From Vicinamibacteria bacterium (lineage in GTDB: Bacteria; Acidobacteriota; Vicinamibacteria; Fen-336): a stretch of 64,000 nt of DNA. The stretch covers positions 62,001 through 126,000 of the forward strand of contig DATMML010000064.1 in NCBI GenBank assembly GCA_035570235.1, read 5' to 3'. The notes below the pieces were generated by a model, which ran no database searches, had not been told where the DNA came from, and was given only the letters and a program-made list of their open reading frames with translations. A program made the translations under genes and the position numbers. Below are positions 1-20,305 of the stretch, piece by piece. Each line of letters starts with the position of its first letter. Within the stretch, counting starts at the first letter, position 1.

Positions 1-2
1 CG

Positions 3-1442
3 CGCGTGCTCAAGGATGGCAGCGATTCTGTCGGCGCGCTCGGGGCACTTAACCGTGTGTACCTCAACATCGGTCTGTTCAGCGAAGAGTGGCTGCTGCA
101 CTTCAACGCCCTAGTGGGCGGCAAGCCTACCACGCGGATCGAAATCGCGGTGGCGCGCAAGAACTCGGCCTACTGGCTCGCTACCGAGGCCCAAACCCCG
201 AACCTGGCCCTCTTCTTCCTGAATAGCACGGAGCCCCACAGGCTGAAGGATGGCCTGCGATTCCTGCAGAGCAATGCACCCGAACAACTCAAGCAGATCC
301 CTGGCGGGCTCGACTACCTTCCTACTGAAATGCCAAGATTCGCCCGCGGCAAGCAGGTTTTCGCCGAGCGCTGCGCGCGCTGTCACTCGAGCAAGCTGCC
401 CTCGCCCGCCATAGGCCTCGACCCCGACGGCTGCAACGGCGCGCAGTACCTGGGCTGCTGGAACCGGTACTGGGACTGGACCAAGACCGACGACTTCAAG
501 CGGCAGATGGGGCAGATCGTCCAGGCTAAGGACTTCCTCGAGAACAACTTCCTCTCGAGCGAGTTCCGCGTGCCGGTCACACTACTGCAGACCAACGCTT
601 GCAGCACCCTGGCCACGAACGCCATTGCTGGCAGCATTTGGGACAACTTCTCCTCGCAGTCCTACAAGGAACTGCCATCGGTCGGTGAGATCACAGTGCA
701 CCACCCATATACCGGAGAGCCGTGGACCTACAAGATGCCGGCGGGGGGCCGGGGTTACACGCGTCCGGCCTCGCTTGTCAGCCTCTGGTCCACCGCACCC
801 TTCCTCCTCAACAACAGCGTGGGTCTCTTTGACCCCAGCCCGTCCGTCGATGCCCGCCTGCGCTCTTTCCAGGACTCAATCGAGAAGATGCTGTGGCCCG
901 AGAAAAGGGACAAGGACGACCTGCTCGGGGACAAGGTACCGGGCCGGATCGACCGCACCACGGCCACCAGCTACCTGCGCGTCCCGGCCGGCTTCCTGCC
1001 CAGCGCTCTACAGCCTCTGCTCGGTTGGGGAAGCCGCTGGTTGCCGGCAGTCTTCGGGGAGAGCGGCATCGAGATCGGGCCGATTCCCAAGGGCACGCCA
1101 GTGAACTTGCTCGCCAACCTAGAGCTAGTGTCGGCTTCGGACGATGCCGGCACGAGCTTGGTGCACGGCAAACAGGTGGTTGATCTTCTGGGCAAGGTCA
1201 AGCACGACCTAGAGGCACTGCCCGCGAACGCGACTGACGAACAAGCCAGGCAGGTCTTCGCCAACCTGGTCGGGAAGCTCAAAGACGGCCAGCCTGAGCC
1301 GGGGACGCTGCTCGCCCTCAGCAAATGCCCCGACTTCGTCGTGAACCGCGGCCACTACTTCGGCACCGACCGCTTCGCGGAGGAGCCCGGCCTCCGGGAC
1401 GACGACAAACGCGCTCTGATCGAGTTCCTGAAGACCTTCTGA
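3..1442 (+). CDS. c-type cytochrome, 5' partial
   Basis: The reading frame is open to the left edge, so the true start lies outside the window and at least 478 residues are visible. One haem c attachment motif, CARCH, sits at about residues 123-127 of the visible part, directly after a helix-like RGKQVFAER stretch typical of class I cytochrome c folds. The later segment PASLVSLWSTAPFLLNNSVG resembles the region of di-haem peroxidase-like proteins that follows the haem domain, and the C-terminus ends in a terminal helix (DDDKRALIEFLKTF). Another haem site could lie in the missing part. The stop is 12 bases before the GMC oxidoreductase start, so the two are probably co-transcribed and the cytochrome may take electrons from that flavoenzyme in the periplasm. 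The family is clear; the partner role is inference. Confidence 0.85.
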   Translation, partial: RVLKDGSDSVGALGALNRVYLNIGLFSEEWLLHFNALVGGKPTTRIEIAVARKNSAYWLATEAQTPNLALFFLNSTEPHRLKDGLRFLQSNAPEQLKQIPGGLDYLPTEMPRFARGKQVFAERCARCHSSKLPSPAIGLDPDGCNGAQYLGCWNRYWDWTKTDDFKRQMGQIVQAKDFLENNFLSSEFRVPVTLLQTNACSTLATNAIAGSIWDNFSSQSYKELPSVGEITVHHPYTGEPWTYKMPAGGRGYTRPASLVSLWSTAPFLLNNSVGLFDPSPSVDARLRSFQDSIEKMLWPEKRDKDDLLGDKVPGRIDRTTATSYLRVPAGFLPSALQPLLGWGSRWLPAVFGESGIEIGPIPKGTPVNLLANLELVSASDDAGTSLVHGKQVVDLLGKVKHDLEALPANATDEQARQVFANLVGKLKDGQPEPGTLLALSKCPDFVVNRGHYFGTDRFAEEPGLRDDDKRALIEFLKTF

Positions 1443-1454
1443 GGAGGGCGAGCC

Positions 1455-3335
1455 ATGGCTGATCGGCAGGCCGACTGCGAGTACATCGTGGTCGGCTCGG
1501 GCGCAGGTGGCGGCACGCTCGCCGCCAGGCTGGCCGAAGCGGGCCGCACGGTCGTGCTCCTCGAGGCCGGGGGCGACCCTCGCCAGCTGCAAGGTGGCGA
1601 CCCCCATGTCCCCGACGGGCACCGCTTGCCCGACGACTACGACGTGCCTGTATTCCACGCCTTCGCCTCGGAGAACGAGGCCATCGGGTGGGCCTTTTTC
1701 GTGCGTCACTACGGCGACCTCGCCCGGCAGCGGCGGGACCCGAAGTTCGTGCCCGAGAGCGACGGCGTCTTCTACCCGCGTGCCGGCGCGCTGGGGGGCT
1801 GCACGGCGCACAACGCGATGATCACGGTCTACCCGCACAATGCCGATTGGAACGAGCTCGCCCGGGTGGCGAACGATGCATCGTGGGGCGCGGACCGCAT
1901 GCGCACCTACTTCGAGCGGCTTGAGAACTGCCACCATCGCCCCGTCGACCGCTTCCTCCGCTTTTTGGGCCTGAACCCCTCGCGGCACGGCTGGACGGGC
2001 TGGCTGCACACGGAGAAGGCCATCCCCCTCGCGGCGCTCGACGATGACGATCTCGTCAAGGTCATTACCGAATCGGCCCACGACGCTTTCGAGTACCTGG
2101 GCAACCCGGTCACGAGGCTCAAGTCGTTCTTCGAAACCTTCGAGAGCTGGGCCGACCCGAACGACTGGCAACTGGTGCAGCAGAGGGCCGAGGGCATTCG
2201 CTACGCACCCCTCTCCACCTGTGGCCACCAGCGCATGGGTGCCCGCGAGCGCGTGCTGGACGTAGCCCGACGCTACCCCGATCGACTGCGGATCGAGTTG
2301 GACGCACTCTGCACGCGTGTCGTCTTCGACGAGCGCAACCGCGCCCTAGGAGTCGAATACCTGAAGGGCGCGCGGCTCTACAAGGCCCATAGCAAGCCCA
2401 GCAGCGCGCCGGGCGAGCGCCGCGAGCTGCGCGCCTCACGCGAGGTCGTGCTGAGCGGCGGGGCCTTCAACACACCACAGCTCCTGATGCTTTCGGGGGT
2501 CGGGCCGAAGGACGTTCTCGCCAAGCATGGCATCACCATGCGCGTAGACCTGCCGGGCGTGGGCCGGAACCTGCAGGACCGTTACGAGGTAGGTGTTGTC
2601 AACCGCATGAACTTCCCCGCCTGGTGGGTGCTGAAGAACGCGACATTCGCCCAGGGCGACCCGCAGTACCGAGAGTGGGCCCGCTCGCGCAAGGGCGTCT
2701 ACAGCACAAACGGCGCGGTCCTGGCCGTCATCAAGCGCGCCGCCGCCAACCGGCCCCTGCCCGACCTGTTCTGCTTCGCGCTGCTGGGCCTATTCAAGGG
2801 CTACTATCCTGGGTACTCCACCGTCTTCGCCAAGAATCTGAACTACCTCACTTGGGCCATCCTTAAGGCCCACACGAACAACCGCGCGGGCCAAGTGACC
2901 CTCCGCTCAGGTGATCCGCGCGACACGCCGCTCGTCGACTTCAAGTATTTCGATGAAGGCAGCGACGCGAGCGGCGACGATCTCGCCTCCGTCGTCGCGG
3001 GCATCAAGTTTGTACGCACGATGACGAAGAAGCTCAAGGAGCAGAAGCTGATCGCCGCGGAGGAGGTGCCCGGGGACGAGGTTCAATCCGAAGACGATCT
3101 CGCCCAGTTCGTGAAGGACAACGCCTGGGGCCACCACGCCTCCTGCACCTGCCCGATCGGCTCGCGTGCGGAGGGCGGCGTGTTGACGGGCGACTTCAAG
3201 GTGCACGGCACCGAAGGCTTGCGCGTCGTGGACGCTTCGGTCTTCCCGCGTATCCCGGGCTTCTTCATCGTGAGCGCAGTCTACATGATCGGTGAAAAGG
3301 CCGCCGACGTGATGCTGAACCAGGCGTCGTCATAG
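1455..3335 (+). CDS. GMC family oxidoreductase (choline dehydrogenase-like)
   Basis: This is a 626-residue FAD-dependent oxidoreductase. The N-terminus has the Rossmann dinucleotide-binding motif GSGAGGGTLAARLAEAG followed by the acidic end of strand two (LLEAGG). The GMC signature FNTPQLLMLSGVGP lies mid-protein. The C-terminal catalytic region has the expected histidine pair (H560-H561, in GHHASCTCPIG) and a final VDASVFPRIPG segment that contacts FAD. ATG is preceded by GAGGAGGG at good spacing. GMC enzymes oxidise alcohol groups of sugars, choline, sterols or other lipids; the substrate here cannot be read from sequence. No Tat or Sec signal is evident at the N-terminus. Linkage to the cytochrome upstream suggests a dehydrogenase passing electrons to haem c rather than an oxidase using oxygen. 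Family very sure, substrate unknown. Confidence 0.93.
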   Translation: MADRQADCEYIVVGSGAGGGTLAARLAEAGRTVVLLEAGGDPRQLQGGDPHVPDGHRLPDDYDVPVFHAFASENEAIGWAFFVRHYGDLARQRRDPKFVPESDGVFYPRAGALGGCTAHNAMITVYPHNADWNELARVANDASWGADRMRTYFERLENCHHRPVDRFLRFLGLNPSRHGWTGWLHTEKAIPLAALDDDDLVKVITESAHDAFEYLGNPVTRLKSFFETFESWADPNDWQLVQQRAEGIRYAPLSTCGHQRMGARERVLDVARRYPDRLRIELDALCTRVVFDERNRALGVEYLKGARLYKAHSKPSSAPGERRELRASREVVLSGGAFNTPQLLMLSGVGPKDVLAKHGITMRVDLPGVGRNLQDRYEVGVVNRMNFPAWWVLKNATFAQGDPQYREWARSRKGVYSTNGAVLAVIKRAAANRPLPDLFCFALLGLFKGYYPGYSTVFAKNLNYLTWAILKAHTNNRAGQVTLRSGDPRDTPLVDFKYFDEGSDASGDDLASVVAGIKFVRTMTKKLKEQKLIAAEEVPGDEVQSEDDLAQFVKDNAWGHHASCTCPIGSRAEGGVLTGDFKVHGTEGLRVVDASVFPRIPGFFIVSAVYMIGEKAADVMLNQASS

Positions 3336-3360
3336 CCTTGGCGTCCGAGAGACCCAGACA

Positions 3361-3418
3361 TGGGACCACGAAACCAACGGCTCAAGGGGTCCGCATTGTC
3401 CCACGCGCCCTTTTTTCG
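3361..3418 (+). terminator. possible intrinsic terminator after the GMC gene
   Basis: Downstream of the GMC stop, TGGGAC (3361-3366) can pair with GTCCCA (3398-3403), or GGACC (3363-3367) with GGTCC (3388-3392). A GC-rich step and a run of six T (3411-3416) follow. The loop is long and the pairing weak, so this may be only an attenuator. It separates the cytochrome/GMC pair from the DUF4331 gene. Confidence 0.35.
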
Positions 3419-3475
3419 TGCCGTAGTTGGTGACGTTGACGGCGGGTGTCGGAAGGAAGGCCCGCAGGAGCGATC

Positions 3476-5296
3476 ATGCGATATCGACGGGTGCCCTGGA
3501 TTTCCCTGGCGGTGACGCTGTGCCTGCTGGCGACAGGTGCCACGCGTGCCGCTGATCACAACGACCCTAACGCGATCAACTCGATCTTCTCCGACGTGCA
3601 GGTCAGCGCCGCCGACCTCTACGACATCTTCGGCTTTCCCGCCGACGACGAGACTGGCGGTGAGCGAGTGGTCATCGCGCTGACTTTTGCCTCGGTCCCG
3701 AGGGCGGGCGCCTTCGACACCGATATGCTCTACCGGGTCCGGATCTATCCCGGCCCGCGCCCGGCCCCGCCGCTCGAGAATGACCAGAGCCTTGAGGCCA
3801 TGCTGGCCTACTTCGAGACGGTCAAGGATAAGTACCTGCACGCGAAGCCGGCCGAAGTGCGCTTGACCGTCGACGCCGCGGGCAAAGCATCGCTCGTGTT
3901 CCTGGGCTTCCCGAGTGGCAGTTTCGAAAAGGCCATTGAAACGAACACGGTCACGACCGTCAAGAGCCCCGACGGGCAGGTGCTCAAGGTCTATGTCGGC
4001 GGGCGCGACGACGCATTCTTCAACGACCTACCGGGCTTCTTCCGCTCTATCAACTACGCGCCCCAGTTCTATCACGTGCCAGTCTCGGCGCCGAAGGAGC
4101 TGAGGGAGCTGCCCATCCCCAAGACGCTCCTCGAGCTGGAGGGCAACACGCTTTTCAACTTCAACCCCCAGAAACCAAACCTGGGCAGTGGCGTGAAGGA
4201 GGATCTGCCTCCGGGCCCGTACACCTGGAACGGCAAGGGCTACCTCAAGGACGCCAACGGCAACTACCGCTTCGTCTACAGCGGTAAGGACGCCCAAGCC
4301 GGGCGCAACGTCAACTCAATGATCTTGGAACTCCCTCTCTCCTTCGTCACCAAGACCCCGCAGATCGACCGGCTCGTGAACACCTGGGGCGAGAGCTGGG
4401 TGCTCAAGGCAGCGCACAGGATCATGGCGATTCCGGACGACCGCCAGCGCCCGCGCGGGCCGGCCTGGGTACGCCATCCGTGGGTCACGGGGGGCGCTGT
4501 AATCGTGCTTGGGCTCTTGCTCTTTCTGGTCGGAAGGCCGGCGCCAGCAGCGATGCGGGGCGGACACAAGGTAATCCGGCTGGCGGGTCTTGCGCTGATG
4601 GCTGGAGGCTTGGCCGCCGGCGTCCTGATCTCGCGGCTCGAGCAGTCCAGCGACGCGTTGCACGGCCCGCCCGACGCCCAACTCGAGAAATACAAGCTCG
4701 TGGACACCGATGGCCAAGCGTTCGCCGACGCGGCGCTCAACGAGCGCGAGGACGACCGCCAGGTGGGCGCGGACAACTTCTGGCTCGCGGAGCACTTCGT
4801 GACGCGCCTCGCGCACCTGGGCTGGGGGTTCGGGCCCTCCGTCAGCGCGTTGGGTCTCAAGACGGCCTTCGACCACGGTAACTCACCTATTTCGGTGCAC
4901 AAGACCTACGCGTTGGCTGCAGAGGCCTTTCCGCGTGTCAAGAAGATGATCTTCCAGCGCCTGAACATGCCCGACGACACTTGGAATAAGCACCACCTGA
5001 AGATCCCGTTGCGCCGCACGTTCGAGGTCTTCATCCCCAACGTCTGCGCGATCGACATGGACACGACCGGCACCTGGCCCTTCGGACGGAGGCCAGAAGA
5101 CCAGGTCGCCACGCGCTTTCTCTCGCTCTTCCTCGATATGGAGGCGGAGCTAAACGGTAAGAAGTACAACGTGGAGACGCTCAACGACCCGGAACTGTGG
5201 GCACACGCGCCCATCGAACCAAAGACGCCGCCGAACCCGCTCAAGAACGACAAACCGTTCCTCACGGCGTTTCCCTATTTGGCCGAGCCATGGTGA
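3476..5296 (+). CDS. DUF4331 protein with internal membrane segments
   Basis: The protein has 606 residues. ATG at 3476 is chosen because GCAGGAG lies just upstream and it opens a clean signal peptide (VPWISLAVTLCLLATG, cleaved near ATRAADHN). The mature N-terminus, ADHNDPNAINSIFSDVQ followed by DLYDIFGF, is the start of the DUF4331 fold. The far C-terminus (GTWPFGRRPEDQVATRF and FLTAFPYLAEPW) matches the usual end of DUF4331. Between them lie two hydrophobic helices, around residues 340-360 and 370-390, and about 80 more residues, so the domain seems interrupted by a membrane-spanning insert. The stop overlaps the start of the next gene. DUF4331 has no established biochemical function. The gene heads a tight three-gene unit with a TPR protein and a HupE/UreJ-type membrane protein. 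Confidence 0.85.
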   Translation: MRYRRVPWISLAVTLCLLATGATRAADHNDPNAINSIFSDVQVSAADLYDIFGFPADDETGGERVVIALTFASVPRAGAFDTDMLYRVRIYPGPRPAPPLENDQSLEAMLAYFETVKDKYLHAKPAEVRLTVDAAGKASLVFLGFPSGSFEKAIETNTVTTVKSPDGQVLKVYVGGRDDAFFNDLPGFFRSINYAPQFYHVPVSAPKELRELPIPKTLLELEGNTLFNFNPQKPNLGSGVKEDLPPGPYTWNGKGYLKDANGNYRFVYSGKDAQAGRNVNSMILELPLSFVTKTPQIDRLVNTWGESWVLKAAHRIMAIPDDRQRPRGPAWVRHPWVTGGAVIVLGLLLFLVGRPAPAAMRGGHKVIRLAGLALMAGGLAAGVLISRLEQSSDALHGPPDAQLEKYKLVDTDGQAFADAALNEREDDRQVGADNFWLAEHFVTRLAHLGWGFGPSVSALGLKTAFDHGNSPISVHKTYALAAEAFPRVKKMIFQRLNMPDDTWNKHHLKIPLRRTFEVFIPNVCAIDMDTTGTWPFGRRPEDQVATRFLSLFLDMEAELNGKKYNVETLNDPELWAHAPIEPKTPPNPLKNDKPFLTAFPYLAEPW

Positions 5297-6561
5297 CCAC
5301 GGCCCCCCGCGTCCGTCGCGGGGGGGCCTTCGTCCTTGTCGTCCTCGGCGCATGCGCTGCGTTAGTCCTGCGCACCGACGAATCGCAGGCACGGCTGACC
5401 GACTATGCGACCGACCTGCAGCGTCTCGACGCCCAGCTCCTCGCCCTCGGTCCGAGGCTGATCGCACCTTCCCCTCTAGAGCGCGCCACTCGCCAAGTGG
5501 CGCTGCTCCAACGCCGGGCGGCGCTCACGGGGAGCACGGCCGACGAGGCCCGCGCCCGCGCAGCGGCCGCCGAGAACCTCCAGGGCCTCGGCCCGGCGCC
5601 CGACCTGCTTCTTCTCGCCGCTGACTTCGCCCTTCGCTTCCACCGACTCGCAGAAGCGCGCGCCGACCTTGAGCGGCTGCCGGCGCGCATCGCGGGCCCG
5701 AGCGCCGAGGCCTTGCGGTCCGACCTGGCCCTGCAAGAAGGCGACTACGCCCGAGCACGGCTGCACTGCGAGGAAGCCTTGCGCGTTCGCCGCGATTGGG
5801 ACGTGCTCGAACGGCTGGCACACCTCGAGTCCCTCAGGGGCGCTAGCGAGAGCGCCGACGCCCTGTACGCCCAGGCCGAGGACGAGCTCACCGCCAAGGA
5901 GATGCGCGCCTACGCCTGGGTCGAACTGCAGCGTGGCCAGCTCGCGCTCAGCCGTGGCCGTCACGCCGAGGCGGAGCAGCACTACGCGCGCGCCGAGCGC
6001 GGCTACTCCGGGGATTGGCGGGTTGCGGAGCACTTGGCCGAGCTGTGCGCCGCAGAACGGCGCTTCGAAGAGGCGGTGGCGCTTTACGAGCGGGTGGTGG
6101 CGCGTGTGGCGCGGCCCGAGATCGAGCAGGCGCTCGGCGATCTGCTGGCCTTCATCGGCCGTCCTGAGGCCGCACGCGGCTGGCACGACCGAGCCTTGCG
6201 GGGCTACCTTGCGTCCGTGGGGCGCGGTGAAGTGCACTACTTCCACCACCTGGCGGGCTTCTTCGCGGACGCACGCCCGGACGCGGACGAGGCTCTGCGC
6301 TGGGCGCGTCGGGACGCGGCATTGCGCGGCGGCGTTCCCACGCAGGACGCGCTGGCCTGGGCGCTCTACCGCGCTGGTCGCTTCAGCGAGGCGCTGGATG
6401 CGATGCGTACGGCGCTCCAGGGCGGCATCCGGGACGCGCACCTCTGCTTCCGCGCCGGCATGATCCACCTGGCCGCTGGCCGCGCCGCGGAAGGGCGTCA
6501 TTGGCTGGCGCTCGCCGCCGACCTCAACCCGCACTACGACGCCTTCCATGAGCACCGCTGA
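5290..6561 (+). CDS. TPR-repeat protein, membrane anchored
   Basis: This 423-residue protein starts at an ATG that overlaps the end of the DUF4331 gene (ATGGTGA), which indicates translational coupling. A hydrophobic N-terminal helix (FVLVVLGACAALVL) would anchor or export it. The rest is alanine- and arginine-rich helical sequence with degenerate tetratricopeptide units, for example segments ending RAERGY, ALYERVVARVARPEIEQALG and ALRGGVPTQDALAWALYRAGR. TPR arrays act as protein-binding scaffolds, so it probably holds the DUF4331 and HupE/UreJ partners together at the membrane. That role is inferred from operon structure. The last 14 bases overlap the next gene. Confidence 0.82.
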   Translation: MVTTAPRVRRGGAFVLVVLGACAALVLRTDESQARLTDYATDLQRLDAQLLALGPRLIAPSPLERATRQVALLQRRAALTGSTADEARARAAAAENLQGLGPAPDLLLLAADFALRFHRLAEARADLERLPARIAGPSAEALRSDLALQEGDYARARLHCEEALRVRRDWDVLERLAHLESLRGASESADALYAQAEDELTAKEMRAYAWVELQRGQLALSRGRHAEAEQHYARAERGYSGDWRVAEHLAELCAAERRFEEAVALYERVVARVARPEIEQALGDLLAFIGRPEAARGWHDRALRGYLASVGRGEVHYFHHLAGFFADARPDADEALRWARRDAALRGGVPTQDALAWALYRAGRFSEALDAMRTALQGGIRDAHLCFRAGMIHLAAGRAAEGRHWLALAADLNPHYDAFHEHR

Positions 6562-7666
6562 GTCGGCCCCCCGCCAGCCCTGGCTGGGCTTCTGTGTCTT
6601 GACCGCCCTGCTGGCGGCTGCCCAGCTCGCCGAAGGGCACCCCGTCGCGCAGGGCCGCATGGCAGTCGAGATCCTTCAGGACCGGCTGCTAGTGCGCGCA
6701 ACCGTCCCGCTCGAGGAAGTGCTCGTCGCCTCCGCCCAGGCCTCGCCCGACGAGGCGGCGCTGCCGCTGAGACTACGTACGCACGGCGACTACTTGGCTT
6801 CACACCTGCACGTCGTGGCCGATGGTTGCGCCCTGACGGGGCGCGTCCTAGAGGGGCCCGAGCGGTACACAGGCGGGTGGCCGAGCTACCTGCTCGAGTA
6901 TGGACCGACCCGCGCTCAGCCGACACACATCGAGCTACAGCAGAACGTTCTCCGCGAGTTCCAGTTCGCGCCGGGCAACCCATGGGAGGCCAGCTACATC
7001 GTGAGCATCGGCCGGGCGGGGGAGCGGCCGGAGCAGGGCTCGCTGCTCACGTCGCGGGGGCCGCTCAATTGGCAGGACTCGTCGCACGCCACGGAGGTGG
7101 GGCTTCTGGCTGCGTTCGTGCGCCACGGAATGACGCACATTCTGGCCGGCTACGACCACCTGCTCTTTGTCGCGGCACTGGTCCTGGCGGTGGCGTCGCT
7201 CTGGGACTTGGTGAAGGTCGTTGCGGCGTTCACGCTGGCGCACACGTTAACTCTCGCTCTAGCCGCATTCGGCCTGCTGCGCCTGCCCGGCGCATTCGTC
7301 GAGCCCATGATCGCGGCGAGTATCGTCTGCGTCGCCCTGCAGAACGTGCTCTGGCCCGAGCGCAGCCGCGGCCGCAGCCGCCTAGTAGTCGCGTTCCTGT
7401 TCGGACTCTTTCACGGCCTTGGCTTCGCCGGTGGTTTGCTTGAGGCCATGGCCGGCCTTCCGACCGTGAGCGCTTTGCTGGCGATCGCGGCCTTCAGCGC
7501 GGGGGTTGAGATTGGGCATCAGGCGGTAGTGCTGCCGGCTTTTGCCGGTCTCCGCTTGTTGCGGCGTACCGGGCTGTCGAATGGACCCGACGCAGTCCTG
7601 AGCCGCTATGGGTCGGTGCTGATCGCTGTTGCGGGTAGCGTGTATCTCGCTGCCGCGTTGCGCTAG
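6548..7666 (+). CDS. HupE/UreJ-like membrane protein
   Basis: This 372-residue protein overlaps the TPR gene by 14 bases. An N-terminal signal or anchor helix is followed by a soluble domain of roughly 160 residues. The C-terminal half has about six transmembrane helices with the HupE/UreJ signature region: a histidine-containing RHGMTHILAGYDHLLF, then TLAHTLTLALA, and later LFGLFHGLGFAGGL and GVEIGHQAVV. The repeated His residues within helices are the hallmark of this family, whose better-known members are nickel or cobalt permease-like accessory proteins of hydrogenase and urease. This gene is far from the urease genes in the window and belongs to the DUF4331/TPR unit, so a metal role is possible but unproven. 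Confidence 0.85.
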   Translation: MSTAESAPRQPWLGFCVLTALLAAAQLAEGHPVAQGRMAVEILQDRLLVRATVPLEEVLVASAQASPDEAALPLRLRTHGDYLASHLHVVADGCALTGRVLEGPERYTGGWPSYLLEYGPTRAQPTHIELQQNVLREFQFAPGNPWEASYIVSIGRAGERPEQGSLLTSRGPLNWQDSSHATEVGLLAAFVRHGMTHILAGYDHLLFVAALVLAVASLWDLVKVVAAFTLAHTLTLALAAFGLLRLPGAFVEPMIAASIVCVALQNVLWPERSRGRSRLVVAFLFGLFHGLGFAGGLLEAMAGLPTVSALLAIAAFSAGVEIGHQAVVLPAFAGLRLLRRTGLSNGPDAVLSRYGSVLIAVAGSVYLAAALR

Positions 7667-7685
7667 GTGAGGAGCAGGAGGATGA

Positions 7686-10397: not shown

Positions 10398-10417
10398 AGG
10401 AGCCTTTTCAGCAAACA

Positions 10418-10435: not shown

Positions 10436-10665
10436 CTGGGGAGCCCTCGCTAACGGCGAGAGGAAACGACCGGCTCAGGCGGTCGGCAGGGTCTAGTCTC
10501 TTCCAGGCCCGCGCATCGACTGAGCCCCAGGGGCTGCACTCTTGCGTCAGCGTTGTGGTTCGAGTTGGCGGGCGAGGCAGGTCCCTTACGACTAGGCTCT
10601 CCTGGATGTGGCCTTAGCTGCTGCTTGGTTCGTCGGAGCCCTCTGGAGTCCAAGGATGGAGACCA

Positions 10666-13600
10666 ATGAAGCGTGACCAGCCCCTGTTGTGGCTCCTCAT
10701 TGTTGCGTTGCTCGGGGGCGTGGTCTCACCCCAGTTCCTAGGCTCGCGGGCCACCCCCACGAAGGGGAAGACCGACATCCCTAAGGCTCCCAGCCCGATC
10801 CTGCCGACTTCACCTGTCAAAGCGGAGTTCGTCTCGGTTCTTGCCCGCTTCTTGACACCGGATCTCGACTCTGCGGCGGCCACGCTGCCCGCCCTGCGGA
10901 AAGAGGCCGAGAAACAATCGATTGACGTGCGCTTCTTGATCGCCACCCTGCCGGATCCGATCGATTCGCATGCCGGCTGGCTGTTCGATCCGCTCCTTGA
11001 CGCCATCCAGAGCGCGACTGCGGCTAGCGGCTACGTACTCGATCGATACTCGGTACCTTGGAGGCCCACAACCGAGGTCTCCGGAGGAAGGCTTCATCGA
11101 ATAGGGCTCTTTAATCATGAGGAAGCGCCCGCGGTCGTCCTGCTCCGCCGCACCGGTCCACAACCAAGCTACAAACAAGAGCTTCTAGTGCTCTTCCTCG
11201 TGGGAGAAACACCCACCTCTGGGATCCATACCAGAGCGCTCCTGGCGGCGTTAAAGGTAATCGGGGACTGGAATCCTGATGGAGCCAGGACTATCCCGAT
11301 CCTGGGGCCGTCATTTTCAGGGTCAACCGCGTCGCTGGTTAGTGCCATCCGATCCTGGGGCCGCGCCAACCACAATGCAAAGTGCCTACGCATCGTCTCG
11401 GGGAGCGCCACCAGCATTGTGCGCAAACGAATCGAAGAGGTTCTACCGAACCGCGTGACCTTTCGAGCAACGGTCGCACCTGATACCTGGGTGCTTGAGA
11501 AGATGCACTCTTATATGAGTGACACCTATGGCCTGTTCGAGGAGCGCGGCCCCCTCGGAAAACGGCTAGCTGCCCTACTTGTCGAGTCCAACACCGACTA
11601 CGGTCGTGCTCTCAGTGACTACCTGTCAACCCAGCAAGCAGACGCGCTTGTCCTTCGCTTTCCGCTCCACATCGCCCACCTAAGAAGTGCCTACGCGAGC
11701 GATCGGGTCGAAGCACCGCCAGAAACAAGCACTTCCGCCACAAGCTTGTCGCTCCGCCTTTCCTTCGACGAGCCTCTCGACGCGGCGGACCTCCTCCCGA
11801 CGTTTGATCCATTGCCGACGTCCCGCGAGGTGGATCTCGCCTTGTCAAACATCCTTGACGTCCTTGGTCGTGAGCGCGTCTCCTACGTCGGGCTCTTGGC
11901 AACCGACTCCCGCGACAAGCTGTTCCTCGCGCAGCAGATCGCGAGACATTGCCCCGACGTGGTGCTCTTCACGCTCGAGAGTGACTTGTTTTATGCTCAC
12001 CCGGACTACGCCCGCTACATGCGCGGCGCGATCGTGGTCTCGAGTTACCCCGTCTTCAACGGTACGCAGTCTTGGACGCTGCCGTTCGAAGGCGCTCGTA
12101 TGCGTCTACAGCTTCCGACGACGAACACACAAGGTGTCTACAACGCCACTCTCGCCCTGCTGGGGTACGACGAGGAGGGCAATCCGCTCAGCTATTCCCC
12201 CGCGCCCCCGAATCTCGTGGACTACGCGGTCCCCCAGGCTCTCGATTGTCCAGACGGCTGCCGTCCTCCGCTTTGGTTCAGCGTCGTGGGGCGAGGCTCG
12301 ATATGGCCACTTGCGACCGCAAAGCCGAGTTCTGACGTGTTGGCCTATGTTCAGCCTTGGAAACCCCCGAGCCATGGCAACCTGTCTGAAGTCCCCGTCG
12401 CGCTCCACCCCTCCGAATTCGCACTGGCCGCCTTCGGTGTTCTAACCTTCATCGGCCTGGCTCATGGGCTAGCCTACTGCTTTCAGCGCCAGGAGAAGCC
12501 CTGGCCCCTCCTCAGCTCATTAGGTTGCCGGGGCCATGCTGAGCGGCAGCCGTATCTGTTTGTCTGCTTCGGCGTACTGAGCTCGCTCTATGCCGTCTGC
12601 GCTCCCGTCCTCCTCATTGCGTTGGGCCTGATTCGACCTGGAAAGCTGTGGCCCGCAGGTCTGGGCTGGGGTAAGGCCGGGCTCGTGGCTGTCGCGTTCT
12701 GCGCCATCGGACTCGCCTCATGCACGGTCTGGTCGGGCTTGAGCGCAGCCGCCCTCACGTGGTCCAAGAAGGGGGGCCACGTGAATGTCAGCGAGGAGGA
12801 CAACAGGCAAAAAGGCATCGCGTCAGGGCTGCTCCTTGGCGCTCTGCTCGTCGGTTGCAGCGCTGCCGCCTGGTTTCTCTGGTACTCATGGGCCGTTCTG
12901 CAAGGGCTGTTTTCAGTGGACCTCCAGACTCGCGCGGCGCTCTTGTTCTACGTCGAGCGGGCCACAAATCCCGGGAACGGCGTGTCCCCCTTGGTGCCGC
13001 TTCTTCTGCTCGGCGCTGCCTTTTACGCTGCGGCTTTCCTTCAGCTGCGCCGGCTCAGTCTTCCTCATCCGGTCTTGGGAGCGGACGGCCTTCCAGAGAT
13101 CAAGCGACTCGCCAAGGGTGCCATCGACGGCGAGCGCGCAGCCCTCGGGTGGCTTGTTGGGCCGGGCACTCTGTTGCTGCCACCGTGGCGGCTCGCGGTA
13201 CCCGTCCTTGGCCTGATCTTTGGTGCTTTCTGCCTCAATTTGCGCCAGCGCCTTTCGACGATCGAGGGTCCTGTCTTCGACGCGGGCTGCGAGCTCTCGT
13301 TCCTGTTGCTCCATGGCCTGGTCGCACTGTCGCTGCTTCGTTTTGTCTGCCTCTGGTCGTCCCTCAAGGATTTGCTGCGGCGTCTAAGTGCCCACCCGAT
13401 CGTTGCGGCCTACAGCCGTCTCTCGCCGAGGCTTGCCCGCACCTTCGAGGCGAGGTACTCGCCCGCGGTTCCTGAGATGCTCGAGCTGGGTGAGCCGCTT
13501 GGCCTCGCTAGGCGGCTCGACGATGGATTGGGCGCCGTCAAGAACGACCTTGAGACCCGCTACCCGTACTGCAAGGGCCCGCTCCTAGTCCTAGTGACTG

Positions 13601-14223
13601 CGCTCGGTGGGTCCGCGGCGACGGAGGTGATGTTCGAGAACGAGGTCGGCGAACCAAAAGCGGCCACGACATGGTCTGGCAGTGGCACTTGGCAGTTCTT
13701 GGTCGGATTGACGGCCCCCATGATTGACTTCCTCGATACGTTCTGGACTGGCCATCCGAACGTCATGCTGGCGACGAGAGATTCCGACAAACCGGATCCG
13801 CCCCTTGAGTGGCTCTCTCGAGGCGAGGAGTTCCTGGCGACTCTCGTGGCCCTCTGCGTCCGCGAGGTGCTCGCACATCTCAGGAACTGCCTGCTCTTTG
13901 TGATGATCGGCCTCTTCCTCATCCTGGGTGTTGTTTCCTCGTTCCCGTTCCAGCCGCAGCGGCACCTGCTCGGGTTTCCTTGGGTAGTCATGCTTGGCGT
14001 GATCGGTGCGCTTGTGATGGTCTTCGTCCAGATCGATCGGGACGAGGTGATCAGCCGGATTTCGGGCACGCCCCCGGGGAGAGTGAGCTGGGATTGGACC
14101 TTCGTCTCGAGCCTCCTGACCTACGGGTTGCTGCCGCTGGCGACGCTCTTCGCAACGCAGTTCCCTGAGATCGGAACGGTCGTCCTGACGGCTTTGCAGC
14201 CGGTTCAAAAGAGCATTCCGTGA
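10666..14223 (+). CDS. large multi-pass membrane protein of unknown function
   Basis: The protein has 1185 residues. ATG at 10666 opens a signal-anchor (LLWLLIVALLGGVV). Residues of about 45-560 form a soluble, probably periplasmic, region. A segment reading FLIATLPDPIDSHAGWLFDP followed by a run ending in DRYSVPW resembles uncharacterised bacterial proteins. The later parts LLVLFLVGETPTSGIH, IPILGPSFSGSTASLVSAI and VSYVGLLATDSRD look like alternating strands and helices of a type I periplasmic-binding fold. From about residue 580 to the end there are roughly ten hydrophobic helices, with a soluble loop near residues 900-1020. I recognise no catalytic motif. It lies 268 bases after the patatin gene on the same strand. 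A sensor or transporter-like role is speculative. Confidence 0.75.
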   Translation: MKRDQPLLWLLIVALLGGVVSPQFLGSRATPTKGKTDIPKAPSPILPTSPVKAEFVSVLARFLTPDLDSAAATLPALRKEAEKQSIDVRFLIATLPDPIDSHAGWLFDPLLDAIQSATAASGYVLDRYSVPWRPTTEVSGGRLHRIGLFNHEEAPAVVLLRRTGPQPSYKQELLVLFLVGETPTSGIHTRALLAALKVIGDWNPDGARTIPILGPSFSGSTASLVSAIRSWGRANHNAKCLRIVSGSATSIVRKRIEEVLPNRVTFRATVAPDTWVLEKMHSYMSDTYGLFEERGPLGKRLAALLVESNTDYGRALSDYLSTQQADALVLRFPLHIAHLRSAYASDRVEAPPETSTSATSLSLRLSFDEPLDAADLLPTFDPLPTSREVDLALSNILDVLGRERVSYVGLLATDSRDKLFLAQQIARHCPDVVLFTLESDLFYAHPDYARYMRGAIVVSSYPVFNGTQSWTLPFEGARMRLQLPTTNTQGVYNATLALLGYDEEGNPLSYSPAPPNLVDYAVPQALDCPDGCRPPLWFSVVGRGSIWPLATAKPSSDVLAYVQPWKPPSHGNLSEVPVALHPSEFALAAFGVLTFIGLAHGLAYCFQRQEKPWPLLSSLGCRGHAERQPYLFVCFGVLSSLYAVCAPVLLIALGLIRPGKLWPAGLGWGKAGLVAVAFCAIGLASCTVWSGLSAAALTWSKKGGHVNVSEEDNRQKGIASGLLLGALLVGCSAAAWFLWYSWAVLQGLFSVDLQTRAALLFYVERATNPGNGVSPLVPLLLLGAAFYAAAFLQLRRLSLPHPVLGADGLPEIKRLAKGAIDGERAALGWLVGPGTLLLPPWRLAVPVLGLIFGAFCLNLRQRLSTIEGPVFDAGCELSFLLLHGLVALSLLRFVCLWSSLKDLLRRLSAHPIVAAYSRLSPRLARTFEARYSPAVPEMLELGEPLGLARRLDDGLGAVKNDLETRYPYCKGPLLVLVTALGGSAATEVMFENEVGEPKAATTWSGSGTWQFLVGLTAPMIDFLDTFWTGHPNVMLATRDSDKPDPPLEWLSRGEEFLATLVALCVREVLAHLRNCLLFVMIGLFLILGVVSSFPFQPQRHLLGFPWVVMLGVIGALVMVFVQIDRDEVISRISGTPPGRVSWDWTFVSSLLTYGLLPLATLFATQFPEIGTVVLTALQPVQKSIP

Positions 14224-14540
14224 GCGACCTGTCGAGGGGAATCCCTGTCGTCGCCTTCGCTCTCGCCAATGTCTTACCGGCTGCTTCTGGCACGGCTTTA
14301 GACCTCTTGTGTCAGCTGCCTCGCGGCCCGATTCAGGGCCTCGTCGTGAAGGTCGGAGGGCCTTCCCTCGCGCCACCTCGCCTACGCTTGACCTTGCTGC
14401 ACTTGCCGCGGGTTGAAGCGATGACGGCGGCGGTTGTAGGGAAGAAGACGGGCAGGAGATTATCGTGGGCCAACACTGGATTGTTTGCCGCTCGAGAACC
14501 ACAGTGGCTGTTCGCATTCCTACGCCGGAGGCTGGCATGA
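14220..14540 (+). CDS. possible small coupled ORF, unknown
   Basis: This is a 106-codon frame starting at GTG inside the stop of the 1185-residue gene (GTGA) and ending in ATGA at the start of the peroxidase gene. Such exact overlaps at both ends are typical of translationally coupled genes, and the frame fills a gap that otherwise has no gene. Against it: the predicted protein (MSDLSRGIPVVAFALANVLP at the N-terminus, then a basic C-terminal half) resembles nothing I know, and in GC-rich DNA open frames of this length arise by chance. It may instead be leader sequence. Confidence 0.3.
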   Translation: MSDLSRGIPVVAFALANVLPAASGTALDLLCQLPRGPIQGLVVKVGGPSLAPPRLRLTLLHLPRVEAMTAAVVGKKTGRRLSWANTGLFAAREPQWLFAFLRRRLA

Positions 14541-17365
14541 CAATACTCCGTCTTCTCCTGTTCCCTATTGGACTTTTGGTGCTTCAGCCTTGCCTTGGAG
14601 CGACTGAAGGTAATCCAAAGGAGGAATTCGAGTCACTGAAGGCCTGCGCCAGCATGGCCCGCGACGGACTTCCAGACATGGCGGAGACGCGCGACCGTCG
14701 GTTTGAGGGCAAGGTCCCGGTGGCAACTGCGCTGTGCCGCGGGGGTGAGAAGGCCCTGCAATTGCGTCTCACGCCCTGGGTGGACTGGTCGCAATACTGG
14801 GGCACCGGCGACCTCAGATCGAGACCAACCGGACTGATCACGAGCAGCGGGCCGTCCTTTCGTGGCCTAACAGGAGCCTTGTTCGACTTGGAGTATGAGC
14901 GCATCGAGCTGCTCAGGTTCAATCTTTTCGACAACAACAAGACCTATAAAGAGTACGTTACCGGACGAACTGCTGTTGCTGGTCCCACTATCAAGGTCTG
15001 GCCTGAGATGAGGCTGCCCAGCGGTCATCCCGACTATCAGAGCGTTGGGGGTGATGGAATTCAGGTCTGCAAGGGGGATCTGATCCGCAGCCGGACTCCG
15101 ACAGGGATCTGTAACGACATCTTGAATCCTCTCATGGGCTCCTCCGGGCAGCTTTTCGCGCGCAACGTGGAGTTTGACACCACGTTCCCGGACCTGGGTC
15201 GGAACGAGCTGACCAAGAACCGCCACGGCAACCGACTGAGCCTCCTCATGCCTGATCCGCAAGTCGTGAGTAGGAAGCTATTTACTCGATCGCAATCACA
15301 CCCGGAGGCTTGTAACGAAGGACTTGGCCTTCCTAACAACCCTCCATCCGCAAACTGCGAATACAAGAAGGCAGCATTTCTGAACGTGCTCGCAGCGTTT
15401 TGGATTCAGTTCATGACCCACGATTGGTTTTCTCATTTGGTGGAGGGGCACAACCACGCTGAATTCATGCCGGTGGGATGCCAGGCCCGGCTTTACAACA
15501 ATGTCGAGACGCCCTTGACCGCGGATGAGATCCAGCGGCTTGGGTGCCGACCAGGGGACCGTATCGACAAAGCGTACGTTGAGGAGGCTGCGGAGCCGGA
15601 GCACTTCGTGAGCGGCGGCAAGGACTATCTCGCGCGGGCGCCGAAGACCATGCGCAACAACAATACGGCTTGGTGGGACGCATCACAGCTCTATGGATAC
15701 GATGACGTTTCGCGAAACCGCGTCAAGCTCGATCGAAACGATCCCGCCAAACTACGTCTCGATCCCCTCCCGGGCTCGGCCGGCCCGGGTTACCTCCCTC
15801 TCTTCGAACCTGGCGATCCCATCAATCCCGAATGGACAGGACAGGAGGCCACCGGATTCCCGGACAACTGGACGATCGGACTCAGCTTCTTTCATAACGT
15901 GTTCGCCAGAGAGCACAACGCGTTTGTCGATGAGTACCGGAAGGTGGCAGCGCAAACGCCGCTGGCGGACTGCGGTTTGCGGAACCCCTCGGACCCCTCG
16001 CGGATCATTCGCTATAAGGATGTATCACCTGCCGAACTCTTCGACGTAGCCCGGTTAGTGGTATCGGCCGAGATCGCCAAGATCCACACCACCGAATGGA
16101 CACCCCAACTGCTTTACAACGAACCCCTCTACAAAGGAATGAACGCAAACTGGAATGGCCTGCTAGGCCCCGGTGACGAACAGGTCTCAAGGGCGCTAAG
16201 CCTCTTGGTGAGTGCCCTTGGGGAATCTAAGGACGCGCAAGGCGCGTTGAAGTGGTATTCGGTGCTCGCCTCCGGGCCGGGTATTGTTGGTCTGGGCAGC
16301 AGAGTGCCCCACTATGACATCACAGACCCCGCATACACGAACGGCGGAGTCAACCATTTCGGATCTCCCTTCAACTTTCCAGAGGAATTCGTGACGGTGT
16401 ATCGGCTGCATCCATTACTTCCGGACTTAATTGAGTACCGTCGGCTGGAAAAGGATCCAAACACGATCGTAGCCAAAATCCCCCTGGCAGCGACCTTTCG
16501 CGGCAAGGCCACTGACGTCATGCACTCGATCGGCCTTGCCAACTCTGCACTCAGCATGGGCCGTCAGCGACTGGGTTTGCTGACCCTCCACAATCATCCG
16601 CTATTCCTACAGAACCTCCGGATGTCGAGACTCGAGAGTGACACGCATCAGATCGACGTGGCAGCGTTGGATTTGATTCGTGACCGGGAGCGTGGGGTGC
16701 CTCGCTTCAACGAGTTTCGGCGACAGTATGGGCTTCGGCAGCTTACAAGCTACGACGACTTCATGGATCGTCGCTTGCCGCCTGACTCGCCCGAACGACC
16801 CGGGCAGGAGGAGATGGTCAAGTCACTCCGCGAGCTCTACGGCCAACACGTGTGTGATTCATCGAAGGTGATCACGGACGCGCAACGAAACGAGGACCGC
16901 TCCCCCATCAACGATTGTTTGGGAAGCCCGAACGGAACACTGATCGACAACATCGAAGATGTGGATACCGTCGTCGGGTGGCTCGCGGAGTCAACGCGGC
17001 CGCATGGGTTCGCGATCTCCGAAACTCAGTTTATCGTTTTCGTACTGAACGCATCCAGGCGCCTGTTCAGCGATCGCTTCTTCACGTCCAGCTTTCGGCC
17101 CGAGTTCTACACGACGCTCGGTCTGGACTGGGTGAACCACAATGGCCCAGGACCGGAGGTGATCGAAAAGGGCACCCCGAATGGTCACAAACAGCCGGTG
17201 TCTCCATTGAAGCGCGTCCTCATGAGGACGATTCCGGAGTTGAAGCGCGAGTTGCAGCCGGTAGTCAACGTCTTTGATCCGTGGGCAAGAGATCGAGGTG
17301 AGTACTATAGCCTCGAATGGATACCCCGCCCGGGCGCACAATCCGACGAGGCATTTCCAAGATGA
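14537..17365 (+). CDS. animal-type haem peroxidase / cyclooxygenase-like dioxygenase
   Basis: This 942-residue secreted protein starts at ATG 14537, preceded by CCGGAGG and opening a signal peptide (MTILRLLLFPIGLLVLQP). It has the peroxidase-cyclooxygenase superfamily core in order: TGICNDILNPLMGSSGQLFA, the distal-side helix FMTHDWFSHL with His295, the segment RNNNTAWWDASQLYG, the helix FAREHNAFVDEYR with Glu459, and VYRLHPLLPD with Tyr622 and His625. The last matches the cyclooxygenase element Y-H-W-H-P-L-L-P-D, where the Tyr forms the catalytic radical and the His ligates haem. This points to a fatty-acid dioxygenase more than a halide peroxidase. Base composition looks less GC-rich than upstream genes, so transfer is possible. 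Family is sure; substrate is inferred from the motif and the nearby lipase. Confidence 0.92.
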   Translation: MTILRLLLFPIGLLVLQPCLGATEGNPKEEFESLKACASMARDGLPDMAETRDRRFEGKVPVATALCRGGEKALQLRLTPWVDWSQYWGTGDLRSRPTGLITSSGPSFRGLTGALFDLEYERIELLRFNLFDNNKTYKEYVTGRTAVAGPTIKVWPEMRLPSGHPDYQSVGGDGIQVCKGDLIRSRTPTGICNDILNPLMGSSGQLFARNVEFDTTFPDLGRNELTKNRHGNRLSLLMPDPQVVSRKLFTRSQSHPEACNEGLGLPNNPPSANCEYKKAAFLNVLAAFWIQFMTHDWFSHLVEGHNHAEFMPVGCQARLYNNVETPLTADEIQRLGCRPGDRIDKAYVEEAAEPEHFVSGGKDYLARAPKTMRNNNTAWWDASQLYGYDDVSRNRVKLDRNDPAKLRLDPLPGSAGPGYLPLFEPGDPINPEWTGQEATGFPDNWTIGLSFFHNVFAREHNAFVDEYRKVAAQTPLADCGLRNPSDPSRIIRYKDVSPAELFDVARLVVSAEIAKIHTTEWTPQLLYNEPLYKGMNANWNGLLGPGDEQVSRALSLLVSALGESKDAQGALKWYSVLASGPGIVGLGSRVPHYDITDPAYTNGGVNHFGSPFNFPEEFVTVYRLHPLLPDLIEYRRLEKDPNTIVAKIPLAATFRGKATDVMHSIGLANSALSMGRQRLGLLTLHNHPLFLQNLRMSRLESDTHQIDVAALDLIRDRERGVPRFNEFRRQYGLRQLTSYDDFMDRRLPPDSPERPGQEEMVKSLRELYGQHVCDSSKVITDAQRNEDRSPINDCLGSPNGTLIDNIEDVDTVVGWLAESTRPHGFAISETQFIVFVLNASRRLFSDRFFTSSFRPEFYTTLGLDWVNHNGPGPEVIEKGTPNGHKQPVSPLKRVLMRTIPELKRELQPVVNVFDPWARDRGEYYSLEWIPRPGAQSDEAFPR

Positions 17366-17465
17366 AGCAGGACAACGACTTGGCGGCGTGTCTTGGGGGG
17401 AGGAACGAAACTGTGGTTGACCCGTTGATAGCTCTCACACCGGTTCTTAACGCTTGGAGGCGTCC

Positions 17466-18494
17466 ATGAAACAGATCCTCAGGCCCCTTTTGTGGCGCGC
17501 CGTCTTGCTAGCAGGCGCCCCGTTGCTCCTCTTCAGCTCGGTGCTTATCGCCGATTCAGTGGCCACAGTCGCTCGGTCATCGAATCTGCGCAAGGATCAC
17601 GACGTCTCGGCGGCCTTGGTGAAGCACCTTCCTGCTTCGACGCCGTTGACCGTCCTGGATACGAACCCCCAGAATGGCTACCTCCACGTTCGGACGGCCG
17701 AGGGCGATGAAGGTTGGGTTCTTGCAGGGAACGTCAATGCCGGAGCGGAAAGGCAGCCTGCTCACCACCCCACTCCCTTTGCGGCTCGGGCCGCCAAGGC
17801 GCGTTCGCGCAGCTCCGGACCTTGTGCCGCCTCGCTGAGCGATTGCACACCCGACGGCTGTGACTCTCCAGGCACCCCACACGCACTCCTCAACAACCGC
17901 AAGCGAACGGTACTCCCGGACGGTCCTGTGGTCACCCTCACCTTCGCTGACCTGCGGGCGCTGCAAGGTAGTACGGATCAGAAGGGCATTGCGCAGGGCG
18001 CCGACATAACCGATCGGGGCGTTCTCGTGGACCTCGACCTGGGTGGGGGCCGCAAGATCAGTGAAGGCACCCTCGTGCAGGTGGCCGGCTTCATCAGCCC
18101 AGAAAGAAACCTCGTCAAGGGGAGCGCTGAGTCCGTCAATTGCCGTCTCACCAGCGCCGACGAAACCGACGTGCACCTCCCCATTGTGGAGACGGCTGAA
18201 GGCACCGAGTTCGAGTCCCTGGTGGTAGAACCCATCCCTCAAGGCCGGCCCCCCAATTGGAACCTCACCCTTTGGAAAAACATCCAGACTGATGGGACCA
18301 AGCTCTTGGTCCGCGGACAGCTCATGTACGACAACATACACACCGTGAACGACGACCCGAGCCATACACAGGGCGGGCAACCCAAGAGGTTCACCCTCTG
18401 GGAAGTCCATCCCATCAGCGCGATCTTTGAGTGCGCCGTGCCTTCGAACGACTGCGACCCGGCGCGGGAAGCAGACTGGATCCAGGCGAAATGA
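17466..18494 (+). CDS. secreted SH3-domain protein, unknown function
   Basis: The protein has 342 residues; ATG 17466 follows TTGGAGGCG. A signal peptide or anchor (LLWRAVLLAGAPLLLFSSVL) is followed by a bacterial SH3 domain at about residues 35-95 (SNLRKDHDVSAALVKHLPA, then LTVLDTNPQNGYLHVRTAEG and DEGWVLAGNV). A linker has two Cys pairs (GPCAASLSDC and TPDGCD). The C-terminal domain of about 200 residues is probably beta-rich and I do not recognise it; it also has Cys residues (FECAVPSNDC). SH3b domains often bind peptidoglycan or peptides in the periplasm. It lies 100 bases downstream of the peroxidase and is probably part of the same transcription unit. Confidence 0.75.
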   Translation: MKQILRPLLWRAVLLAGAPLLLFSSVLIADSVATVARSSNLRKDHDVSAALVKHLPASTPLTVLDTNPQNGYLHVRTAEGDEGWVLAGNVNAGAERQPAHHPTPFAARAAKARSRSSGPCAASLSDCTPDGCDSPGTPHALLNNRKRTVLPDGPVVTLTFADLRALQGSTDQKGIAQGADITDRGVLVDLDLGGGRKISEGTLVQVAGFISPERNLVKGSAESVNCRLTSADETDVHLPIVETAEGTEFESLVVEPIPQGRPPNWNLTLWKNIQTDGTKLLVRGQLMYDNIHTVNDDPSHTQGGQPKRFTLWEVHPISAIFECAVPSNDCDPAREADWIQAK

Positions 18495-18670
18495 TCAACC
18501 TGGCCGGCCACGGGGAATGGGTTGGGTTCAATATCTGCCGGATCCGTGCGACCTTGCCCTACTCGCGTCGCTCGATGCCCTGCTGATACTCCCGGATCAA
18601 GTAGACCTGCGCGCCCAGTGCCCCCTTTCTACGATCAGGGAAGGGGCTGCGTTTAGCTAGGGGGTTAGTA

Positions 18671-20305
18671 GTGAGCTGGTTACGTGTTTCCTCATCGTTA
18701 TGGTTCATGATCGTCAGCGGCGCCCTGTTGAGCCTCGTGGGTTTTGGCGCCCATTGGTTGCCGGCCTCGCCTCCGATTCAGCATTGGGAAGGATGGGAAC
18801 TCGCTGCGATCTCATGGACGGGGCTGTTCGCGCTTTACTACCATTTCAATTCTCCGTTTGTTGGTGACTTCGGCTTCCATAGATGGATGACACTGTTGTG
18901 CCTTGTGGGCGTAGGCCTCTCAGCCGCACTAGCAGCAGTTTGTCTTGTGTTGTGGCATCTCCATCCCTCGCTGCACCAGCTTCTTGACGCGCATTTGTGG
19001 TTTGCCGGATTCATCTCGGCAATGCTGCTCCTCTCCGACGTGCTCTTTTATGGACGCCACGACGATCCAGTTGAAAAGGCAGCCTTTCTGCAGAGCGCCC
19101 TCTTTGCCGATCTCCCCGCAACGTTCGCTTTGGTTATCCTCATTGCGTTTAACACGTTCCATCATTTTCACCTTTGTGGCGAGAGCCTGGAGGCCTTCCT
19201 AGGGGGGGCCATCTCCTTACAATTTCTGGCAGCGAACGTCGTATTCGTTCTGATCCAAGGGGGCCTCGTGAGCAGGGCTCAGGCCGGATCGGCCGGCAGC
19301 TTCCTGACTCTGCTCAAGATTTCCACTGTTGCATGCATTCTTCTTGCGGTGGTGCCCTTTGGTTTCCTCGTCACGCACCGCCGTGACGAATGGATTGACT
19401 TTGAGTCCTGGCTCGGCCACGAGGGGGCTGCCCGGCGCCAGTTCGACCTAGACCAACAAGAAGGAAATATTCGCGGCTTGCTTTCTGGCGCTTGGAACTC
19501 CGGGACGAGCACGAGCAAAAGAGGGTTTGGCAGACCTGAAATCCAGACGGTGTTCTACATTCCAAATCAAGTGTGCGAATCCTCTCCTGGCCACCCCGGG
19601 AAGCTGGCCATCAAGCTCCAGAGAATCCGGGACCGTCCGGAGAGCCAACGGTTCGTATGCCTGTTTGTAACCGGGACACCCAGCTTCGCAGATGGAACAG
19701 CAGGTTCCGTTCTCTTGACGAGAGTGGCTTCGGGTGATCACGAATTTGCCATTGTGAGGCATGCTCGCTGGCTTGAACTACCCGATCTCGTAGAAGCCTT
19801 CGTGGTTACGAAGTATTGCGAGTCTGACTTGCCCTATACGGACTTTATTCAAATCCACACTCGCAAGTACCTAGGGACAGCGCCTGAAGACAGCGGAGAA
19901 GCCGAGGTGGACGTAGCTCTCGAGTCGGCAAAGGAGGTGAGCCGAGCGCATGTGTGGGAAATGCGACCGCGCGCTCAAGGTGCCGGGATCCCACTTGAGT
20001 TCCGAGAGGCTGGTGGAGTTGACGCTGGCATATCGCCGCTTGAGCCGCAATTTAGAGAGTGGATCCACTATGTCAACAGCTGCGTTAAGGGCGAGTCTGA
20101 ACCGCGTCCAGGGCCGACGGCCGACGGACCCTCCTGGAAAGATGCGAAGCAATTGCTGACGGAAGCGGCCATCTTGCTGGCTGAGAGCGAGTATAAATAT
20201 AAAAGGCACTGCGCCCTCACTTCGACGCGGAACGCTGTGGTATTCACCTACACGCTCAAGATCGAGCACGAACCGGGTGCAGCCCGGCCGACCACTGGGC
20301 CGTGA
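18671..20305 (+). CDS. membrane protein with C-terminal soluble domain, unknown
   Basis: This 544-residue protein begins at GTG 18671 behind an AGGGGGT site. The first 240 residues hold about seven hydrophobic helices, including LWFMIVSGALLSLVGFGAHW, TLLCLVGVGLSAALAAVCLV and a His-rich stretch, FNTFHHFHLCGE, at a membrane boundary. The remaining 300 residues are soluble and mixed alpha/beta (for example FVCLFVTGTPSFADG, HEFAIVRHARWLELPDLVEA), with no motif I can name. Base composition is visibly lower in GC than the urease or MoxR genes in this window. As the last gene of the co-directional run it may work with the peroxidase and SH3 protein, but no function is assigned. Confidence 0.7.
   Translation: MSWLRVSSSLWFMIVSGALLSLVGFGAHWLPASPPIQHWEGWELAAISWTGLFALYYHFNSPFVGDFGFHRWMTLLCLVGVGLSAALAAVCLVLWHLHPSLHQLLDAHLWFAGFISAMLLLSDVLFYGRHDDPVEKAAFLQSALFADLPATFALVILIAFNTFHHFHLCGESLEAFLGGAISLQFLAANVVFVLIQGGLVSRAQAGSAGSFLTLLKISTVACILLAVVPFGFLVTHRRDEWIDFESWLGHEGAARRQFDLDQQEGNIRGLLSGAWNSGTSTSKRGFGRPEIQTVFYIPNQVCESSPGHPGKLAIKLQRIRDRPESQRFVCLFVTGTPSFADGTAGSVLLTRVASGDHEFAIVRHARWLELPDLVEAFVVTKYCESDLPYTDFIQIHTRKYLGTAPEDSGEAEVDVALESAKEVSRAHVWEMRPRAQGAGIPLEFREAGGVDAGISPLEPQFREWIHYVNSCVKGESEPRPGPTADGPSWKDAKQLLTEAAILLAESEYKYKRHCALTSTRNAVVFTYTLKIEHEPGAARPTTGP

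Follow-up and report, generated by a model that had tools for sequence, protein, structure and literature searches.

Does a run of genes for a lipase, a haem peroxidase, a flavoprotein and a c-type cytochrome encode a single pathway for the oxygenation of fatty acids? Known bacterial oxylipins are the products of a handful of enzymes, from Pseudomonas aeruginosa and cyanobacteria. The run lies at one end of the window, by which we mean the whole 64,000-nucleotide stretch that was analysed (G000:C64:62001-126000, within the 5.7 Mb genome of a soil-type bacterium). From the protein families and motifs encoded there, we lean toward reading it as a fatty-acid oxygenation cluster that would work as one pathway, with lipase-fed alpha-dioxygenation carried out by a mobile, modular gene set. 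Alpha-dioxygenase (alpha-DOX) genes in Acidobacteria and Proteobacteria, a fusion of catalase and haem dioxygenase in a cyanobacterium, and the lipoxygenase of N. europaea are already on record. A literature search, with subscription papers outside its reach, found no paper on this gene combination.

Layout of the gene run

Open reading frame calling yielded ten large frames between positions 1 and 20305, all on the plus strand, and every gene named in the original prediction is present in this one co-directional run. The first covers the C-terminal portion of a c-type di-haem lipoprotein (dihemeC; positions 3 to 1442), whose start lies outside the window at about G000:C64:60900. It is followed by a GMC flavoprotein (1455 to 3335; PF05199 at 8.8e-30 and PF00732 at 5.7e-19, both above cut-off), a DUF4331 protein with a signal peptide and hydrophobic segments (3446 to 5296; PF14224, 2.6e-12), a TPR protein (about 5290 to 6561; TPR Pfam matches) and a HupE/UreJ_2 membrane protein (6548 to 7666; PF13795, 1.8e-37). 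The second half holds a membrane patatin with about 11 hydrophobic segments (7686 to 10397; PF01734, 1.8e-9), a 1185-aa membrane protein without a Pfam family (10666 to 14223), a secreted, long alpha-dioxygenase-like haem peroxidase (POX; about 14537 to 17365; An_peroxidase, 1.1e-62, 212.7 bits), an SH3-domain secreted protein (17454 to 18494; PF08239 at 1e-5, slightly below cut-off) and a 544-aa membrane protein, also without a Pfam family (18671 to 20305). A pattern scan of the run for promoters and terminators gave nothing exceeding shuffled sequences; consequently, it is only the spacing and shared direction of the genes that suggest co-transcription.

The G+C content drops to 58% between positions 16001 and 20000 of the window, compared with about 65% elsewhere, across the end of the POX gene and the SH3 and 544-aa genes. 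Upstream of the window, on the same strand as dihemeC, a PF04185 phosphoesterase (phospholipase C/acid phosphatase family) precedes it, and the same region (L004:12800-15698) contains a weak match to the metallo-beta-lactamase fold. These two genes may extend the lipid theme.

The haem peroxidase and its partner enzymes

The haem protein had been predicted to contain a Y-x-x-H-P-L-L-P-D element and to be a cyclooxygenase-type enzyme. The element is present, reading Y-R-L-H-P-L-L-P-D (Tyr646 and His649 of the 966-aa frame). A single-sequence search retrieved the rice and Arabidopsis alpha-dioxygenases (4kvj/4hhr) at about 1e-54. Against solved structures, the alpha-DOX 4kvj scored 4.3e-54 by phmmer versus 1.6e-4 for the best match of any other kind, and 4.1e-75 by profile versus 2.6e-7 (myeloperoxidase, about 3e-7). 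In neither the single-sequence nor the profile search did any PGHS chain appear at E ≤ 1e-3, and in POX Pfam recognises An_peroxidase alone, without the EGF and membrane-binding domains of PGHS. We therefore reject the cyclooxygenase assignment.

In rice alpha-DOX, the functional residues comprise the haem His pair, the Tyr radical site, the carboxylate-binding His311, Thr316 and Arg559, and the stacking Phe375 and Phe552 (PMC8720084). By alignment, rice H157, H311, T316 and F375 correspond to POX H319, H541, T546 and F642, and rice Y379, H382, F552 and R559 to Y646, H649, F859 and R866. POX thus keeps the catalytic Tyr646, both haem-associated histidines (His649 and His319), the carboxylate-binding His541, Thr546 and Arg866 and the stacking Phe642 and Phe859, and all eight residues are invariant in 30 of 30 aligned proteins (27 long POX and three short alpha-DOX-like proteins). 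Given the search margin and these conserved residues, the fatty-acid dioxygenase part of the original prediction stands and the cyclooxygenase part falls. POX probably oxygenates fatty acids, as judged from its sequence.

The window POX belongs to a long subfamily of about 950 aa, with a signal peptide or lipobox, whose members among the best 80 loci are 57-72% identical to it and occur in many phyla. Plant alpha-DOX/PIOX and the cyanobacterial CsDOX, CalDOX and LepDOX share its haem family and all eight functional residues; in contrast to these proteins of 560-650 aa, POX has large insertions and a signal peptide, and its alpha-DOX activity is a prediction. To our knowledge, no member of the long subfamily has an activity on record. 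The short alpha-DOX-like proteins that this bacterial class also encodes are 36-39% identical to the window POX, and a long, fully supported branch of the POX tree separates them from the long subfamily. AlphaFold models of POX and of the N. europaea dihemeC had pLDDT values of 49 and 32, too low for use.

The predicted lipase with an intact Ser/Asp dyad is also borne out. The patatin exceeds its Pfam cut-off (38.5 versus 27.7 bits) and carries an SGGG oxyanion loop at residue 54, the nucleophile Ser87 (S-V-S-G-G) and Asp713 (DGG); the residue two before the nucleophile is Ser, not Gly. It is 56% identical over 895 aa to the patatin that adjoins the GMC gene in another genome of the comparison, G110. 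The flavoprotein, proposed as an oxidoreductase for lipid alcohols, has the FAD-binding fold and the GMC C-terminal domain, and retains the catalytic His (WGHHASC). The second catalytic His/Asn is absent, its position being hydrophobic (PGFFIxSAVYM) in all orthologues that cover the region, so that the GMC fold holds but a canonical GMC alcohol oxidase does not.

The expectation of a simple electron-accepting cytochrome c is not supported: the full protein of about 840 aa has a lipoprotein-like start and two CXXCH motifs, at residues 265 and 519 (CAFCH and CARCH), and is a di-haem protein. Its orthologue in G110 is 70% identical, and its score against NCBIfam NF040606 is below cut-off. Membership of the RoxA/FadCcp group was considered on motif resemblance and rejected: the protein has no match to PF21419, the RoxA-like Pfam family, profile search returned no RoxA, and the His of the MauG motif PYxHNGSV is missing, the window protein reading PFLLNNSV. 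The P. aeruginosa oleate diol synthase PA2077/PA2078 and RoxA are likewise secreted di-haem proteins that oxygenate fatty acyl or isoprenoid chains; the window dihemeC differs from them in its larger size and in these two missing signatures. Since dihemeC lacks both and GMC lacks one catalytic residue, an electron-transfer step between them is a guess. RoxA/FadCcp proteins oxygenate rubber and oleate (PMC4496055), and an oxygenase role for dihemeC is therefore as open as electron transfer.

Neighbourhoods in other genomes

The lack of a conserved neighbourhood had been named beforehand as a refuting result. What we found is a recurrent association of POX with lipase, GMC, dihemeC, lipoxygenase, catalase-like and RoxA-like genes across phyla, including the linkage of lipase, dioxygenase and hydroperoxide-processing genes by which an oxylipin cluster is judged. 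The POX neighbours in other phyla are lipoxygenase, a second haem dioxygenase-like protein, catalase-like, DyP-like and RoxA-like di-haem proteins, and patatin or Tle1 lipases. In N. europaea, genes for a tyrosinase, a cyclooxygenase-like haem protein and a lipoxygenase directly precede the POX orthologue, after which come the GMC and dihemeC orthologues on the other strand and, beyond them, cl2, cl3, DyP-like and catalase-like genes. Its lipoxygenase matches solved lipoxygenases along its full length, and the genome's single GMC gene sits between POX and dihemeC. By comparison, the window genome has no lipoxygenase, and no Tle1 either. G030, from the window's class, encodes catalase-like, lipoxygenase-family and POX proteins, an alpha/beta hydrolase and a membrane patatin on one contig; its lipoxygenase-like protein is divergent (42 bits in Pfam; the fourth iron ligand looks unconserved by eye) and is consequently counted as neighbourhood evidence only.

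Further POX loci contain RoxA-like di-haem pairs (PF21419), a P450, FAD_binding_4/ALO oxidases and patatin or Tle1 lipases. A CYP74-like identity for the P450, considered from its NGKQxCAGKD loop, is unsupported, the nearest solved P450s being generic. At loci in the class picked by dihemeC alone, GMC adjoins and patatin, Tle1, catalase-like, DyP-like, RoxA-like or OYE-type genes are present; tandem RoxA-like pairs adjoin POX or dihemeC in genomes other than the window's. The only other genome of the class with both a long POX and dihemeC carries them on different contigs. In G110, one contig carries dihemeC, GMC and patatin and another carries TPR, DUF4331, a short patatin and POX; these two loci are two halves of the window's single run. 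The TPR gene adjoins DUF4331 and POX there too (L065), and relatives of the 1185-aa membrane protein lie near POX at two other loci (L023 and L041). Among the POX loci compared, the HupE/UreJ_2, SH3 and 544-aa proteins lack relatives close to any other POX gene. Over the stretch examined, no partner at all accompanies POX at the majority of Nitrospira loci and at many of those from Burkholderiales.

Several associations were seen apart from the full set. Window-type membrane patatins stand beside or near large proteins with catalase-like domains, without POX, in L145 and L146 (genomes G099 and G093). Short alpha-DOX-like genes adjoin OYE-type FMN oxidoreductases in L135 and L151 (G102 and G092), with a patatin also nearby in L135; this pairing resembles the jasmonate pathway. 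Two uncharacterised families of about 150 and 434 aa accompany DyP-like and catalase-like genes near POX at L069:18052-22597 and its equivalents in about 20 loci, and at L068:14179-16230 the 150-aa family apparently forms the N-terminal part of a fusion with a RoxA-like di-haem protein.

The RoxA-like partners bear on the strongest alternative, in which lipase and alpha-oxidation, joined elsewhere by RoxA-like oxygenases, would degrade exogenous lipids or hydrocarbons for carbon by chain shortening, with no dedicated oxylipin. The export of POX and dihemeC and the nearby lipases agree with such a role, and alpha-DOX products feed into this kind of shortening. However, autotrophs, Nitrosomonas and Nitrospira among them, also have the POX subfamily, and the catalase-like and DyP-like peroxide-processing partners are a better match to product formation or protection; we consider catabolic shortening unlikely.

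To quantify the linkage we give figures that are rough, given the relatedness of the genomes and the fact that some links first came to light by inspection: lipoxygenase is encoded in 2 of the 25 genomes that have POX or a relative, adjoining POX in each of the two, and in 0 of 14 controls (chance about 2e-5); GMC adjoins dihemeC in all eight genomes checked, where the number of GMC genes per genome is 1-7; three of the six genomes chosen by dihemeC alone have patatin no more than 10 kb away from it (0.07 expected, P about 5e-5); the best three patatin matches outside the window genome all fall in dihemeC genomes (P = 6e-4); DUF4331 of the window subfamily occurs in 2 of 193 genomes of the class, the only two with both long POX and dihemeC (P = 0.005); and, for haem peroxidases of any kind, the overlap with dihemeC across the class is weak (P = 0.04). 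The POX tree mixes phyla and is discordant with taxonomy, and GMC adjacency changes on it at least four times and lipase adjacency eleven times. Consequently, the set looks horizontally shuffled.

Such shuffling also suits a second alternative, that independent secreted oxidative enzymes were assembled by horizontal transfer with no common pathway, POX oxidising halides, phenols or metals. A patchy distribution, the tree's conflict with taxonomy, the G+C dip to 58% at 16-20 kb and the three window genes without a recurrent link are all in its favour. We nevertheless judge it improbable, as the GMC-dihemeC pair is constant, the adjacency of lipoxygenase and lipase far exceeds chance, and the carboxylate-binding residues are strictly retained. 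A shade less probable still is an attack on competitor membranes, or protection against competitors, by lipases and oxygenases that make no product: Tle1-like phospholipase genes, which Pfam assigns to a T6SS effector family, recur beside POX or dihemeC, but no adjoining VgrG, Hcp or immunity gene was identified (without a dedicated search), the window genome has no Tle1, and the patatins here are integral membrane proteins.

Proposed route and wider meaning

We therefore return to lipase-fed alpha-dioxygenation as the preferred reading. By its family and motifs, the membrane patatin would free fatty acids from membrane or exogenous lipids. In the exported POX, by analogy with plant and cyanobacterial alpha-DOX, the haem would generate a radical on Tyr646 while His541 and Arg866 hold the fatty-acid carboxylate; the enzyme would then remove the alpha-hydrogen and add O2, giving a 2-hydroperoxy acid that would become an aldehyde one carbon shorter or a 2-hydroxy acid. 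GMC and dihemeC may process these products or supply peroxide, which is the weakest step. The set is patchy and modular, the same POX subfamily being combined elsewhere with lipoxygenase, catalase-like, DyP-like, P450 or RoxA-like enzymes.

The cyanobacterial fusions of catalase-haem dioxygenase and lipoxygenase in Nostoc and Acaryochloris likewise join a haem dioxygenase to catalase-like and lipoxygenase partners. Loci of the window type differ from them in having separate genes, an enzyme of the alpha-DOX rather than the 10S-DOX type, and GMC, di-haem c and lipase genes in addition. More tentatively, and with less confidence than we place in the pathway itself, we propose a widespread, horizontally shuffled bacterial oxylipin toolkit: the long secreted alpha-dioxygenase subfamily and the GMC/di-haem pair, as a new fatty-acid oxidising couple, together with lipases and optional lipoxygenase, catalase-like, DyP-like, P450 and RoxA-like enzymes. 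It could extend over Acidobacteriota, Nitrosomonas, Nitrospirota, methanotrophs, Halomonas, Gemmatimonadota and Campylobacterota.

The recurrence of the same kinds of genes together in unrelated bacteria suggests an unstudied bacterial route to oxygenated fatty acids. A neighbourhood tying alpha-dioxygenase-type enzymes to lipases, lipoxygenase and peroxide handling would be spread over a large number of environmental phyla and be present in nitrifiers that can be cultivated, N. europaea among them. If this is true, the source, chemistry and purpose of oxygenated fatty acids in bacteria would become directly testable, and the enzymes would be a source of new biocatalysts for making aldehydes and hydroxy acids.
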